Assembly: GCA_026990765.1 (NCBI GenBank)
Contig: JALXCV010000026.1
Coordinates: forward strand, 1 to 64,000
Reading direction: 5' to 3'
Length of the DNA stretch: 64,000 nt
DNA from: Hyphomicrobiales bacterium
GTDB lineage: Bacteria > Pseudomonadota > Alphaproteobacteria > Rhizobiales > Aestuariivirgaceae
The notes under the pieces were generated by a model. The model saw only the letters and a list, made by a program, of their open reading frames with translations. It did no database searches and was not told the origin of the DNA. The translations under genes and the position numbers were made by a program. Within the stretch, counting starts at the first letter, position 1; every line of letters starts with the position of its first letter. Of this stretch, positions 1 to 24,744 are shown one piece after another.

Positions 1-68
1 CTGACCAGTGCCCCATTGATAAAAATCGTTTCACCAGCTCTAAGAGAAATCCTGATAACACCGCTCAT
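1..68 (-). CDS. flbT: Flagellar biosynthesis repressor FlbT, N-terminal fragment (runs off window edge)
   Basis: Reverse complement of 1-68 reads MSGVIRISLRAGETIFINGALV, FlbT-like N-terminus. The ATG overlaps the flaF stop (ATGA). Confidence 0.8.
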   Translation of the reverse strand, partial: MSGVIRISLRAGETIFINGALV

Positions 69-412
69 AACAAACCATCCCTGATTGCTTTTGATACTGA
101 AATAATATCCTTGAAGCTATCGCTCTCCCCTTGTCTCAAGCGCTCGATTTCCCGAATAATCCATATGCCGACAGAAATAAGATCAGCTTTGAGTTGATCA
201 TCAAAGACATTGCGTTCGTCAGTCAAATCCTCAATGAAGAACACCCACATGCGGTGAACAAAGAACTGGGCTTCAACAGCTGCTATTGATGGTATCCCCT
301 GCAATTCAGCGGCCTCCAGCATTTCAATTGCCCGGTCAAAAGCCATAACTTCATTTTCACGTTCGGCCTGACTACTATCATCAACGACTTCCTGATAACT
401 GCTTTGGTACAT
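65..412 (-). CDS. flaF: Flagellar biosynthesis regulator FlaF
   Basis: 115 aa, MYQSSYQEVVDDSSQAERENEVMAFDRAIEML..., FlaF family pattern; adjacent to flbT. Confidence 0.88.
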   Translation of the reverse strand: MYQSSYQEVVDDSSQAERENEVMAFDRAIEMLEAAELQGIPSIAAVEAQFFVHRMWVFFIEDLTDERNVFDDQLKADLISVGIWIIREIERLRQGESDSFKDIISVSKAIRDGLL

Positions 413-12214: not shown

Positions 12215-13141
12215 TTATCTGAACAGTGACAATATGTTCTGGCTTGAAGAGTTGGCGATACTCATTGCCTGAACACCAAGTTGCTGTTGAACCTGCAAGG
12301 CTTTAAGACGAGTTGATTCTGCATTCATATCTGCATCAACCAGCTGGCCAACACCTCGTGTCATTGCATCAGACAGGTTGGAGACGAAGTCTTTTTGCAT
12401 ATCAATACGCTTGGAAGCAGCACCAAGCTTACTGGCAGCTGTGGTCATTGATTTCAAAGCACCATCAACAGTACCGATGATTTGATCAAGGTCGGCCAGG
12501 TCATTTGCACTGTCGGTATAAGAAGCGATTGTCAAGGTTGCAACAGAATAGGTTACATTACCATTTGTTGTAGTGCTTGTATGATCAAGAATACCATCGC
12601 CAGCCGCATTGGCATCATATAGTTCAATGTTTGAAGTATCAACATTGATGGTTCCAATGCTGACGCCGGTTGAAGTGCGTGAGAATGAAGCAACTACTGA
12701 TTTAGTTGCATTATATCCAGCTGCACTTGAATCAACTGACAACCAGTTTTCACCGGAGAAATTGGCGGATTTTGCAATTGAAACCAGCTGATTTTGCAAT
12801 TCATCAACTTCTGACTGAATAGCGGCGCGATCAACCCCTGGTTCGCGTGCCGCAACCAGCTTGGACTTGATTTCATCTACAACCTTGATACTTGCATCCA
12901 TGGCGGTATAAGCCACATCAACAGTGGCAGCGCCAAGGCCAAGCGCATCGGTTACAGTTCCAAGTGCCTTGGTGTCTGAGCGCATTGTGGTTGCAATAGA
13001 CCAGTATGCTGCACTGTCAGAAGCAGTTGCAACTCTGTACCCGGTGGCAATCCGCCCCTGGGTAATATCCATATTCTTGTTTGTTTGATTGAGTGATTGC
13101 AGCGCCGTCATTGCTGAGGCATTTGTCATGATACTCGACAT
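12215..13141 (-). CDS. fliC: Flagellin (copy 1)
   Basis: 308 aa; conserved flagellin N-terminus MSSIMTNASAMTALQSLNQTNKNMDITQGRIATGYRVATASDSAAYWSIATTMRSD and C-terminus. Confidence 0.95.
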   Translation of the reverse strand: MSSIMTNASAMTALQSLNQTNKNMDITQGRIATGYRVATASDSAAYWSIATTMRSDTKALGTVTDALGLGAATVDVAYTAMDASIKVVDEIKSKLVAAREPGVDRAAIQSEVDELQNQLVSIAKSANFSGENWLSVDSSAAGYNATKSVVASFSRTSTGVSIGTINVDTSNIELYDANAAGDGILDHTSTTTNGNVTYSVATLTIASYTDSANDLADLDQIIGTVDGALKSMTTAASKLGAASKRIDMQKDFVSNLSDAMTRGVGQLVDADMNAESTRLKALQVQQQLGVQAMSIANSSSQNILSLFR

Positions 13142-13203
13142 GTTATATGTTCCTTACTCACTAACTTACTGGGTGAAAAAAAATACTATGCTTTTGGGAA
13201 GAA

Positions 13204-13275
13204 CATATCGGGTTCACACCGACATAACGGGGCGGCATCATGCCTATGGTGGTTAGCTCTCAAGCTTCCAATCCG
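13204..13275 (-). promoter_or_regulatory. Conserved 5' leader of flagellin copy 1
   Basis: CATATCGGGTTCACACCGACATAACGGGGCGGCATCATGCCT (13204-13245) plus TTCCAATCCG (13266-13275), both also present upstream of flagellin copy 2. Confidence 0.75.
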
Positions 13276-13304
13276 TCATGACTACAGCTTATATACAGTA
13301 CAAA

Positions 13305-13319
13305 TTAAAAAAATGTAAA
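13305..13319 (-). promoter_or_regulatory. CtrA-like half-degenerate box (TTTA-N7-TTAA on minus strand)
   Basis: TTAA-AAAAATG-TAAA on plus strand; 30 nt from the leader element, matching the spacing of the exact box at flagellin copy 2. Confidence 0.4.
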
Positions 13320-13380: not shown

Positions 13381-14307
13381 TTATTTGAAGAGTGACAGGA
13401 TATTCTGACTGGATGAGTTGGCAATGCTCAAGGCCTGAACACCAAGCTGCTGTTGTACCTGAAGTGCCTTGAGGCGAGTAGATTCAGAATTCATATCCGC
13501 ATCAACTAGCTGGCCAACACCGCGAGTGATGGAGTCCATCAGGCCGGAGATGAAGTCTTTTTGCATATCAATGCGTTTCTTGGTGGCACCAAGATTACTG
13601 GCAGCAGTGGTCATGCTCTTGAGGGCACCATCCACAGTACCGATAATCTGATCCAGGTCAGCCAGATCATTTGCAGTATCTGTGTAAGTTGCAATAGTCA
13701 AAGTGGCTACAGAATAGGTAACATTACCATTTGTAGTAGTGCTTGTATTGTCAAGAATACCTGAGCTGCCAGCATTTGAATCATATAGTTCAACAGTTGC
13801 CGTATTGATGTTGATGGTTCCGATAGATACTCCAGTAGCTGTACGGGTGAATGATGCCACGACAGATTTTGTTGCATTGTAACCGGCAGCACCTGAATTA
13901 ACTGACAACCAGTTTTCACCGGAAAATTCAGCCGATGAAGCAATAGAAACCAACTGGTTCTGCAATTCAGTTATTTCTGACTGTACTGCTACCCTGTCAA
14001 CACCAGGTTCGCGTGCTGCCACCAGTTTGGCTTTTATTTCATCAACAACATGAATACTTGATTCCATTGCAGTATATGCAACATCAACAGTTGCAGCGCC
14101 AAGGCCGAGCGCATCGGTTACTGTGGCCAGCGCCTTGTTGTCAGAGCGCATGGTCGTGGCGATTGACCAGTAAGCGGCACTATCAGAAGCTGTGGCAATT
14201 CTGTAGCCGGTAGAAATCCGCCTTTGAGTGGTTTCCATTCTGTCATTGGTTTGGTTCAGCGTCTGCAGTGCAGTCATAGCTGATGCGTTTGTCATGATAC
14301 TCGACAT
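13381..14307 (-). CDS. fliC: Flagellin (copy 2)
   Basis: 308 aa, very similar in sequence and identical in length to the 12215-13141 product. Confidence 0.95.
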   Translation of the reverse strand: MSSIMTNASAMTALQTLNQTNDRMETTQRRISTGYRIATASDSAAYWSIATTMRSDNKALATVTDALGLGAATVDVAYTAMESSIHVVDEIKAKLVAAREPGVDRVAVQSEITELQNQLVSIASSAEFSGENWLSVNSGAAGYNATKSVVASFTRTATGVSIGTININTATVELYDSNAGSSGILDNTSTTTNGNVTYSVATLTIATYTDTANDLADLDQIIGTVDGALKSMTTAASNLGATKKRIDMQKDFISGLMDSITRGVGQLVDADMNSESTRLKALQVQQQLGVQALSIANSSSQNILSLFK

Positions 14308-14355
14308 GTTGTAAGTCCCTTGTCACTAACAATTCTAAATTTTGGGGAGAAAAAA

Positions 14356-14429
14356 CATATCGGGTTCACACCGACACAGCGGGGCGGCATCATGCCTTTG
14401 GATACATACCCTGCTTGGGTTCCAATCCG
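14356..14429 (-). promoter_or_regulatory. Conserved 5' leader of flagellin copy 2
   Basis: CATATCGGGTTCACACCGACACAGCGGGGCGGCATCATGCCT (14356-14397), 2 mismatches in 42 to copy 1; TTCCAATCCG at 14420-14429. Confidence 0.75.
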
Positions 14430-14456
14430 CTATATTATGGTTAATAAACAATGCAG

Positions 14457-14472
14457 GTTAAAATAACATTAA
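14457..14472 (-). promoter_or_regulatory. CtrA-type box TTAA-N7-TTAAC
   Basis: Minus strand TTAA-TGTTATT-TTAAC, upstream of flagellin copy 2. Confidence 0.55.
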
Positions 14473-20788: not shown

Positions 20789-21068
20789 ATTCAGGATTTT
20801 CTGACTGCAAAATTAATGACTTTTACGGTTTGTAAATCTATTGAACCCATATTGGTGCTGTGACAGAGTTCTGAATACAGACCCGGGCATGAAGCCAGTC
20901 AGTCACATCGGTATAAATCCGATATTTCCAAAAAATCAAAAATTGTAATCGCATTGTCTGTAACGATGATGGCCGTTTTTGTGGCTGCGTATCTGCTGCA
21001 TGACGCCCAGATTTTCAAATTCGGCATTCATACTGGATAATCAGGCATGCTTGATTAGGAGTAATCTC

Positions 21069-21314
21069 ATGTTGTCTTTTGGCAGTATCGCTTTGTCTAT
21101 AGCTTTGGCCCCTGTAATATTATCTGAACCAAAGATCGAGCCACCCACACAACCACCTTCTGCTTATGGCCCGCTGGTTGTTGAAATAGTCATCAAATGT
21201 CCATCCACTGGAGAAGGAATCATTTCTTATTCAAGGCTGGACAGCAAATACTGTACGCCTGATCAAAGCTGTTACTCACAATTGTATCAGGCAAAAAACA
21301 AAACCTGCAAATAA
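21069..21314 (+). CDS. Small Cys-containing secreted protein, unknown function
   Basis: ORF from an internal ATG: MLSFGSIALSIALAPVILSEPK... hydrophobic leader then a C-terminal part with 4 Cys. No family recognised. Confidence 0.4.
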   Translation: MLSFGSIALSIALAPVILSEPKIEPPTQPPSAYGPLVVEIVIKCPSTGEGIISYSRLDSKYCTPDQSCYSQLYQAKNKTCK

Positions 21315-21344: not shown

Positions 21345-22415
21345 GTGACGAATAATATGGTCAACAGTCAAATAGTTTTCAATGACAATGCCAAAAATCT
21401 CAGCGAAGAATATGTGCATTCTGTCAAGCTTGCCGGCGAGGTTTTCAAACTGGTGGAAGAACACATCACACCTCCCAACCCGAAAACCTATGATCTGTGG
21501 TACAATTACCTTGAAGGCAGCAACAAAAAGCTGACCCAACAGGTTGAAATTATTACCAGAAAGGGCAAAAAGCTTAATGAAGAAGATATAAATCTCATTC
21601 ATCAGGCATGTCTGGATGATAAGGATAATTGTTCCAAAAACGCTGAGAAAACGGGTCAGGAACTGGAAGCTGCATGTAAAAAACTGATGAATCTGCTAAA
21701 TAGTCATATTGAGCAGAATGATGGTTATGCCGACTGTCTGGTTGAAGCCAACAAGAAGCTGAATGCAAATCCAACACCTGAAAACCTGAAGGAAGTCGTT
21801 CATACCCTGATTGTTGACAACAGGAAAATGGCCAAGAAGTCAGCTGCCCTGAATTCGCAACTTGCTGAATCGACAGCCCGTCTGAATGAACTGAACCAGG
21901 ACCTGGCCAAGGCACGGGCCAATGAGCTGACAGATGCTCTGACACTTATTGGCAACCGCAAATGCTTTGATCAGGAGTTGGAAAAAAACCTGGAACTGGC
22001 AAAGAAAAAAGGTCACAAATTCTCGCTCATCATAGCTGACCTTGATCATTTCAAACGGATAAATGACACTTTTGGCCACCCGGTTGGCGATGCCATATTG
22101 AAGCTGTTTGCGCGCCTGATGACCAAGAACATCAAAGGTCGTGATGTAGTTGCCAGATATGGCGGTGAGGAGTTTGCACTGATCCTGCCGGAAACAGATG
22201 TTGATGGCTCAATTCAACTGGCCGAACAGATAAGACAGGAACTTGCTTCCCAGGAATTGCAAGTTACCAAGGACCGGACTCCGGTTGGCAAGGTAACAGC
22301 TTCATTTGGCGTTGCCCAATTCATGTATGGCGATAATGCAATGACAATTCTTGCCAGAGCCGACCGGCGTTTATACCAGGCTAAAGAAAATGGAAGAAAC
22401 CAGGTAGCAGCTTAA
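21345..22415 (+). CDS. Diguanylate cyclase (GGDEF domain)
   Basis: 356 aa; [14 protein letters not shown] active site, [18 protein letters not shown]. Confidence 0.93.
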
Positions 22416-22512
22416 AATCAAAAAAACATGCCAAAGACCATCCCCCCCATTTGGTATGTATAGGGTCGGATTGCCCATTAAAGCAGTCCGGCCCGCCTTC
22501 AGGAGATACCCA

Positions 22513-24744
22513 ATGTCTAATTTGTTGCCATCACTCAACAATTTTAAAATAACCAGGAAGCTGATCATATCCCTGATCATTCCGATAACAGCACTTGCAA
22601 TTATGGGTTCAATGTTATCATGGAACGAATATGTAAAATATTCAAAGATGAACCGGTTGCAGAAAATAGTGACACTGGCTCCATCCATCAACGGACTTAT
22701 CCATGAAATGCAAAAAGAACGTGGACTTTCTGCCGGATTTATCGGCAGCAAAGGCCAGCAGAACATGGCAAAAAGGCTTTCGGCCCAAAGATTGGACACA
22801 GACACCAAATACCAGCAACTGACCAAAGCTGTAGCCGAATTTGACCGGACCGGTTATGGCAAAAAATTCTCGGAACTTCTGGACAACGCCATGGCGGAGC
22901 TTGAAAAGCTTTCTGCCAGTCGCACCCGTATTTCCCGCCTTGATATGACCAGCATGGCAATGGCACGCTATTATAGCGGTACAATTGAAAGCCTGCTGAA
23001 AACCGTAAGGCACATGGCACTGCTTAGTGACAATGCCCAGATACTCGGCAAAGTGATCAGCTATACCAGCTTGATGCAGGCCAAGGAGTTCGCCGGTCAG
23101 GAAAGGGCCATGGGTGCTGCAGGTTTTGCGGCAAAAAAATTCGATGCAAAAATTCATCAAAAGTTCATTTCACTGATTGCCGAACAACAATCAGCGATCA
23201 GGGCTTTCAGGCAGTTTGCAACACCTGCCCAATTGTCATTATATGACAATGAGATGCAATCCAAAGACATATCCAAATTCAATCAGATGCGCAAAATCGC
23301 TGTCAATAGCGCCTACCAGCCAGATTACAGCAGCAATATTGCAGCTTCAGACTGGTTCGATATAGCAACCAGAAAAATCAATCGCCTTAAAACTGTCGAA
23401 GACAAGCTGTCTGCAGATATTCTTGAACTGTCCAAAGCATTCGCTGCAAAATCATTTACAAAGCTTTTGACTACAACTGTCAGTATTTTCATCATCCTCG
23501 CTATTGCCATAATCCTGTCAGCATATATTTCTCGCTCAATCTCCTGTCCAATTCAGAAAATCACCCGGACAATGAAGCTTCTGGCTGCTGATGATCTTGA
23601 AATTACAGTTGATGGCACTGACCGCAAGGATGAGATTGGAGAAATGGCCAAGGCTGTTCAGGTATTTCGTGAAAATGCCATTCACAACCAAAAGCTGGAA
23701 GCTGAACAGGCAAGACAGGAACAGGAAAAAGCTGAAGAAACAGCCCAGAGAGCCAGACGAAATGAAGCCAGGGCAGCAGAGCGCAAATTGGTGGCTGACA
23801 GTTTTGCCAGGGCAATGTCTGCCATCTCTGCCAAGGATTTAAGCTACCGTATTACCGAAGAATTCCCCAAGGCTGACCAGAAACTGAAAAATGATTTCAA
23901 CAATTCAGTTAGCCAACTCGCCATGACAATAGATCAGATCGGCATAGAAACAGCCAAAATCCTTGATGGTTCCAGCGAAATACACCAATCTGCCAGCAAC
24001 CTTGCCAGAGACACCGAGCAACAGGCAGCAGCCATAGAAGAAACAGCTGCGGCCATGGAAGAAACCACTGTTGCCATGAAGACCTCCACGCAAAGCGCCA
24101 GAGATGCTGGTGATCTTGTGGCCCAAACCAAGATCAGCGCTGTGGCTTCCGGCAAGGTGGTAAATGAAGCCATCGCAGCCATTGACCGGATAGAAAAATC
24201 CTCAACAGAAATTGCCAATATTATCGGGACAATTGACTCTATAGCGTTCCAGACCAACCTTCTGGCTCTCAATGCCGGCGTTGAAGCTGCCAGGGCCGGT
24301 GAAGCCGGGCGCGGTTTTGCTGTCGTTGCCCAGGAAGTTCGTGAACTGGCCCAGCTTTCTGCAGGCGCTGCCAAGGAGATAACCAGGCTTATTTCCACTT
24401 CTTCTGACAATGTCAAAACCGGCGTTCATCTGGTGCACAAGACCGGTCAATCACTAAACCAGATAGTTGAAGAAGTCTCCAGGGTTTCTGAACATGTCAA
24501 TTCAATCGTTGCTGCTGCCAGTGAACAGTCCATCGGTTTGCAGGAAATAAACCAGTCGGTAAACCGGATTGATCAGGGTATTCAGCAAAATGCAGCCATG
24601 TCCGAACAATCGACAACTGCCAGTTACCGGTTGAAAGAGGAAGTCATGATAATTGACAACATGCTCAAGGAGTTCCGCACCAAGCCAGATAATGACAGCA
24701 AAACCGGTTCCTCAGCCATGGCTGCCAGCCCGGTGGCCGCATAG
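22513..24744 (+). CDS. Methyl-accepting chemotaxis protein with nitrate/nitrite-sensing (NIT) periplasmic domain
   Basis: NIT-type [25 protein letters not shown] signalling hairpin [38 protein letters not shown]. Confidence 0.9.

Follow-up and report, generated by a model that had tools for sequence, protein, structure and literature searches.

Two flagellin genes in a 64,000-nucleotide stretch of a Hyphomicrobiales genome (the window) are preceded by almost the same short block of DNA. Both genes are encoded on the minus strand and predict proteins of 308 amino acids; they are located at 13381..14307 (gene 1; PF00669/PF00700, NCBIfam NF009329 flagellin) and at 12215..13141 (gene 2; PF00669/PF00700, its protein 85% identical to that of gene 1), with ATG start codons at 14307 and 13141. 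The near-identical 42-nt block that the original prediction had described upstream of both ATGs is indeed present, at 14356-14397 and 13204-13245 in plus-strand reading, with 40 of 42 positions identical and exactly two differences (TAAC vs. CAGC); at up to three mismatches it has no other occurrence in the genome, and a reversed-pattern control gave none. The reading that we favor, with a probability of roughly 0.6, is that the block belongs to a structured leader of lateral-type class III mRNAs through which the protein FlbT activates translation, with FlbT binding and opening of the SD as its putative steps.

The 42-nt block turned out to be the 3′ half of an RNA of approximately 80 nt, with CGGATTGGAA further upstream on the mRNA strand in both window leaders; one architecture is common to the flagellin upstream regions of relatives. 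Helix P1 (7-8 bp, e.g., AUGACGGA/UCCGUCAU) closes a three-way junction with P2, an optional hairpin of very variable length, and with the near-invariant P3 (GGCAUGAUGCC), which reads GGCAUGANGCC and is followed by the 3′ strand of P1; then comes P4, (U/C)CGG...CCG(A/G), and a conserved AUG(U), where the segment AUGUCCC is often complementary to GGGACAU at the ribosome-binding site. P2 forms a short hairpin in the majority of leaders; in some (noted at L007, L008, and L031), it is branched and up to approximately 80 nt long, and P1, P3, and P4 around it are unchanged. The stems GGCAT/ATGCC and TCGG/CCGA of the original prediction correspond to P3 and P4; the main helix P1 had been overlooked. 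In P1, one window leader pairs AUAGCGG with CCGCUGU and the other AUGACGG with CCGUUAU, so that both differences between the leaders are located in the 3′ strand of this helix: a C vs. U difference is compensated by G vs. A on the opposite strand, and a G vs. A difference faces a constant U, a change between U-A and a U-G wobble.

The P1-P4 core of leader 1 extends over 14355..14434 on the minus strand (covariance model R1, 71.6 bits, E 1e-19; covariation), with P1 at 14433-14427 and 14382-14376, the P2 stem at 14425-14422 and 14401-14398 (both also in the minimum-energy fold), the P3 hairpin at 14396-14386, and P4 at 14375-14371 and 14363-14359. Leader 2, at 13203..13280 on the minus strand, has the same P1-P4 architecture with the compensatory change in P1 (R1 70.5 bits, E 2.1e-19).

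The covariation that had been proposed as a check on leaders from relatives was found. When 21 leaders were aligned on sequence alone, two-sided compensatory change was seen at 16 of 21 pairs, a result reached by none of 500 shuffles; 89.7% of the cells are paired, and sliding the register by 1-3 columns lowers this value to 30-49%. RNAalifold, unaided, recovers P1 and P4. In an enlarged alignment of 102 distinct rows, which is model-fitted, 20 of 21 pairs are compensated (again 0/500 shuffles) and 93.6% of cells are paired. On the mRNA strand, this fitted alignment contains 87 G-U pairs vs. 40 A-C mismatches (21 vs. 13 in the sequence-only alignment); such an excess would be expected for RNA, unlike the symmetry of DNA, and is taken as supporting evidence only, since the alignment was fitted and the fit of the covariance model somewhat favors G-U. 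Compensatory changes that preserve the helices are thus found, as in a structured cis-regulatory RNA, and that the RNA element is real is a near certainty. A pairing of the GGCAU of P3 with the AUGUC of the post-P4 segment was considered and dropped; as judged by eye, deviant leaders do not retain it.

The original prediction was staked on conservation in other genera, and the element extends far beyond this one. Among 398 genomes of the order searched with covariance model R1, matches were obtained in 144 at E≤0.01 and in 101 at E≤1e-6, the latter from 15 families; carriers include Sinorhizobium, Ensifer, Rhizobium, Mesorhizobium, Hoeflea, Hyphomicrobium, Roseibium, Pannonibacter, and Bradyrhizobium. 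When 80 flagellin loci were gathered by protein similarity, independently of the RNA model, 68 had an R1 match immediately upstream; of the 12 without one, three lack upstream sequence or have too little of it in the locus. Outside the order, the best matches in a class-wide search of 385 genomes reached at most 36 bits, none of those inspected precedes a flagellin gene, and no leader structure in common with the Caulobacterales was found; as a caveat, R1 may be too narrow for distant homologs.

Flagellins are the downstream genes for the great majority of the 215 distinct copies; the remaining copies are located upstream of chemoreceptors (Pfam MCPsignal with HAMP or Protoglobin) or of chemotaxis-operon genes. 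In Sinorhizobium meliloti (CP090106.1), each of the four flagellin genes has a copy ahead of it, and the last of the five mapped copies lies before the globin-coupled sensor gene heading the che operon, whose start codon lies approximately 145 nt beyond the element. The first AUG after this che-operon element (CP090106.1:695474-695549; L312/L323) opens a 14-codon frame before the annotated start, which suggests a possible leader peptide. Another copy (L100, G130:C1:1982146-1982231) stands ahead of a shortened flagellin-like frame (at most 285 aa) with two ordinary flagellin genes next to it; this frame is possibly a decaying or regulatory flagellin paralog.

The window contains a third copy of the element at 20859..20927 on the plus strand (R1 42.7 bits, E 8e-11), with P1 formed by UGUGAC (20859-20864) and GUCACA (20902-20907). 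It occurs at the same place in a congener (G001) with P1 changed to UGUGGC/GCCACA, and it is therefore probably under selection. Downstream on the same strand follow an 81-aa open reading frame with a signal-peptide-like start (21069..21314; conserved in the congener, without a Pfam match), a GGDEF (diguanylate cyclase) gene (21345..22415; PF00990, E 5e-46), and, after 40 nt, a gene for a NIT-domain methyl-accepting chemotaxis protein (22456..24744; PF08376, PF00015). By its position ahead of a small secreted-type frame, a diguanylate cyclase, and a NIT chemoreceptor, the third copy possibly links flagellin control with c-di-GMP. A 38-aa frame after this copy has AUU as its sole start. A fourth copy in this genome is located upstream of an MCP gene on another contig (C75:1477-1548).

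The position of the element within the transcript is suggested by a promoter motif. CtrA-type boxes, defined as TTAA-N7-TTAA with at least seven of eight matches and a start 36-45 nt before the element, were found in 63 of 193 distinct upstream regions, with fewer than one expected from shuffles. Leader 1 has a perfect box (8/8; 14458..14472, minus strand) 38 nt before the element; leader 2 has TTTA-N7-TTAA (7/8; 13305..13319, minus strand) at 39 nt, and the third copy has a CtrA-like TTTA-N7-TAAA (6/8; 20822..20836, plus strand) at 37 nt. In S. meliloti, CtrA motifs accompany flaA, flaC, and flaD in a promoter map based on transcription start sites (PMC3616915), and CtrA binds and activates flaA (PMC4433202). 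Since the box lies at about -38, its spacing places the transcript start near P1, which suggests that transcription begins at the element.

Downstream of P4, the leader appears to pair with its ribosome-binding site. TGTCC occurs in the segment 3′ of P4 in 128 of 167 distinct flagellin leaders; GGGACA or GGGGCA is the usual site ahead of the start codon. Among leaders whose 5′ part of this pairing (P5) is constant, its U faces A or G in 119 of 122. The mean P5 duplex energy is -10.4 kcal/mol, compared to -6.3 when the 5′ parts are shuffled; in 72% of leaders, vs. 22% of controls, the probability that the SD pairs with the P5 5′ part exceeds 0.5. In leader 1, the tail (14308..14358, minus strand) includes AUGUUUUUUCUCCCC as P5 5′ part and the ribosome-binding site AAGGGA (14321-14316), with predicted pairing up to the start codon (pair probability of SD and P5 5′ part 0.75); in leader 2 (13142..13206, minus strand), AUGUUCUU is predicted to pair with AAGGAACAU at the ribosome-binding site. 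Covariation of P5 was sought in the 39 leaders with a deviant 5′ part and was not found; their own pairing is no better than that with foreign SDs. The complementarity is real, although the pairing is not proven because both strands are conserved; the obvious AUGUCCC/GGGACAU pair is absent in about one-quarter of leaders and in most chemoreceptor copies. Masking of the SD, a matter of predicted folding, is thus supported but not proven.

The candidate partner is FlbT. The original prediction had placed flbT and flaF at the left edge of the window; flaF, the partner gene of flbT, is there (65..412, minus strand; PF07309, NF009434). The only flbT gene of this genome is located outside the window and away from the flagellar cluster, on another contig (G000:C47:6388-6756). 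Its location on a separate contig follows from the fact that the window's contig (C26) begins inside the cluster beside flaF, and the separation is probably an assembly break. Of the 101 genomes with strong motif matches, 100 encode FlbT (PF07378) and thus carry flagellin 5′ leaders of this type together with flbT; the exception is an 86%-complete genome. A further 188 FlbT-bearing genomes are without a strong match, and therefore FlbT alone is no predictor of the motif; the type of FlbT is informative. In four genera (g44, g78, g106, g117), the motif occurs in 32 of 32 genomes with two FlbT types, where one FlbT adjoins the motif-bearing flagellins, and it is absent from 16 of 16 single-FlbT genomes; two apparent exceptions are accounted for by a split gene (G235) and by two FlbTs of the other type (G407).

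Among 84 FlbT sequences placed in a tree, 41 motif-linked proteins are separated from 43 others by a single branch (one change) with support of 100/100, and they stay together as one clade, including those from genomes with both FlbT types; the split holds (99/97) when further alphaproteobacterial FlbTs are included as outgroups. This clade, which includes the S. meliloti FlbT, is separate from all other alphaproteobacterial FlbTs sampled, and it is the type encoded with lateral flagella. The NCBIfam models NF001995 and NF009432 divide eight representative sequences along the same line. The order thus harbors two deeply separate FlbT clades that are both named "repressor" in databases; the lateral type is reported as an activator. 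No solved FlbT structure was found for one motif-type FlbT sequence. Covariation, the distribution over 101 genomes, FlbT co-occurrence, and the FlbT tree together lend strong support to the claim of the original prediction that a conserved flagellin leader RNA is connected with FlbT, and co-occurrence and phylogeny argue strongly for a link to one FlbT clade; yet motif and clade may travel together simply because they share one flagellar gene cluster.

Published work on FlbT frames this link. FlbT is listed among RNA-binding proteins whose mechanism is not settled, and its effects in Caulobacter and Brucella are opposite (PMC4347634). In Caulobacter, it represses flagellin (PMC3930126), and its binding has been linked to the decay of flagellin mRNA (PMC4347634); in Brucella, FlbT activates flagellin, and in A. 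fabrum it is needed for motility (PMC9812332). The flbT gene of the lateral system of B. diazoefficiens is reported to induce LafA translationally (Mongiardini 2017, cited in PMC8429497).

Our proposed mechanism combines these observations. Class III motility mRNAs of the "lateral" (Rhizobiaceae-type) flagellar system in the Hyphomicrobiales would begin with the element as a structured 5′ leader. Transcription would start from a CtrA-type promoter, roughly at the 5′ strand of P1 to judge from the spacing; the RNA then folds, as the covariation shows, so that P1 closes a three-way junction formed with P2 and P3, and P4 lies beyond it. The post-P4 segment (usually AUGUCCC) would pair with the ribosome-binding site (usually GGGACAU) and restrain translation, a step for which complementarity speaks rather than covariation. 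The FlbT of the lateral system may recognize the P1-P4 domain, probably through its near-invariant P3 and P4, and may open or displace the P5 pairing, permitting translation of flagellin and, in several genomes, of chemoreceptor or che mRNAs. We infer these last steps because the element co-occurs and shares its phylogeny with one FlbT clade, and because FlbT is reported to be needed for flagellin production.

The same fold might instead be recognized by another factor of the system, such as FlaF, a flagellin or flagellin-like co-regulator, or a different RNA-binding protein. FlaF and flbT are neighbors with coupled functions (PMC9812332, PMC3930126), and because the motif co-varies with the lateral cluster as a whole, any cluster gene would co-occur alike; we nevertheless consider this alternative unlikely, since the reported action on flagellin 5′ UTRs in Caulobacter and Brucella is that of FlbT. 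Copies of the element exist outside the cluster, so that any such factor would have to act in trans.

Control of class III motility genes by a small-molecule riboswitch or an RNA thermometer would be compatible with the compact junction and the near-invariant P3, and with a target range of flagellins, chemoreceptors, and a GGDEF operon. The c-di-GMP riboswitches have comparable targets among motility, chemoreceptor, and GGDEF genes. This alternative appears quite improbable, as the element matches no riboswitch or thermometer family in Rfam, a conserved three-way junction would be unnecessary for a thermometer, and the restriction to genomes with one FlbT clade fits a protein partner better. 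To about the same low degree, the leader may be an mRNA stability or processing element, for example an RNase barrier, with no translational switching: stable 5′ stems commonly protect mRNAs, and the mRNA decay linked to FlbT binding in Caulobacter (PMC4347634) would agree, but the post-P4 segment is complementary to the SD in about three-quarters of leaders and would be superfluous for a pure stability role. An operator at the DNA level, with inverted repeats recognized by a transcription factor, or a gene-duplication remnant, as the adjacency and near identity of the two window leaders might suggest, deserves hardly any credence, given that copies from 15 families differ in sequence yet retain pairing by compensatory changes, that G-U outnumbers A-C on the mRNA strand within the limits stated above, and that a CtrA-type box lies upstream of the element at promoter distance.

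Activation through FlbT remains the preferred reading, and its wider form, for which we see about even odds, is that an RNA family outside Rfam defines a translational regulon of the lateral-type flagellum (flagellins, chemoreceptors, a che operon, and a GGDEF operon) that has co-evolved with its own activator clade of FlbT, which opens an SD-masking leader. Such a leader, present only alongside the activator-type FlbT, would explain the difference between activator and repressor: FlbT would activate in the presence of the leader and repress in its absence. Databases that call the protein "flagellar biosynthesis repressor FlbT" would then misname one of the family's two large branches in this order. 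A widely conserved RNA element that accompanies exactly one FlbT clade may offer a direct explanation for the opposite effects of FlbT and, with its five mapped copies in S. meliloti, a ready assay system. A further prediction is that a common RNA couples the translation of flagellin with that of the che operon; the element also serves as an annotation marker for class III motility genes in rhizobia and their relatives.

Among known RNAs, the element has no Rfam entry: a search against the 4227 families of Rfam 15, c-di-GMP riboswitches included, gave no match at the gathering score, and a relaxed search gave nothing consistent at the element. The flg-Rhizobiales motif (RF01736), which the original prediction had raised as a possible identity, likewise belongs to flagellar operons of this order as a candidate structured RNA. 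It does not match the leaders, either at gathering level or at E≤10, nor did a search of the window's genome return it; it is located upstream of flgF/flgG behind a sigma54-like TTGGCACG...TGC, whereas the leader element is found upstream of flagellin, MCP, or che genes, and its UUGGGAGA/GGGGAG hairpins over 141 positions are not the architecture of the leader element. Membership in flg-Rhizobiales was rejected. Weak RF01736 matches upstream of flgF in further genera (L053-L057) have the sigma54-like promoter core (TTGGCACG...TGC) at their 5′ edge, and part of the conservation of RF01736 may therefore be that of a promoter. The c-di-GMP-I (GEMM) riboswitch resembles the element as a leader RNA upstream of motility, chemotaxis, and GGDEF genes; the leader element has a different fold, lacks an Rfam match, and is tied to an FlbT clade.

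Two flagellin systems are also among the closest known parallels. The 5′ UTR of fljK-type flagellins in Caulobacter crescentus (Anderson and Gober, 2000; as reviewed in PMC3930126, PMC4347634) shares with the present element its location in a flagellin mRNA leader, the presence of an FlbT-family protein and FlaF in the genome, and class III timing. The Caulobacter parallel drawn in the original prediction calls for caution: none of the R1 matches inspected outside the order is flagellin-linked, the motif-linked FlbTs form a separate clade, and the Caulobacter FlbT is described as a repressor or decay factor where the lateral type is described as an activator. For the induction of lafA1/lafA2 in B. 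diazoefficiens, the account in a review (PMC8429497) describes the lafA effect and no conserved RNA element. The induction concerns the same flagellar system and the same positive translational effect as proposed for the leader element, and lateral-type flagellins of Bradyrhizobium carry the motif (L307; family f35 genomes with two FlbTs).
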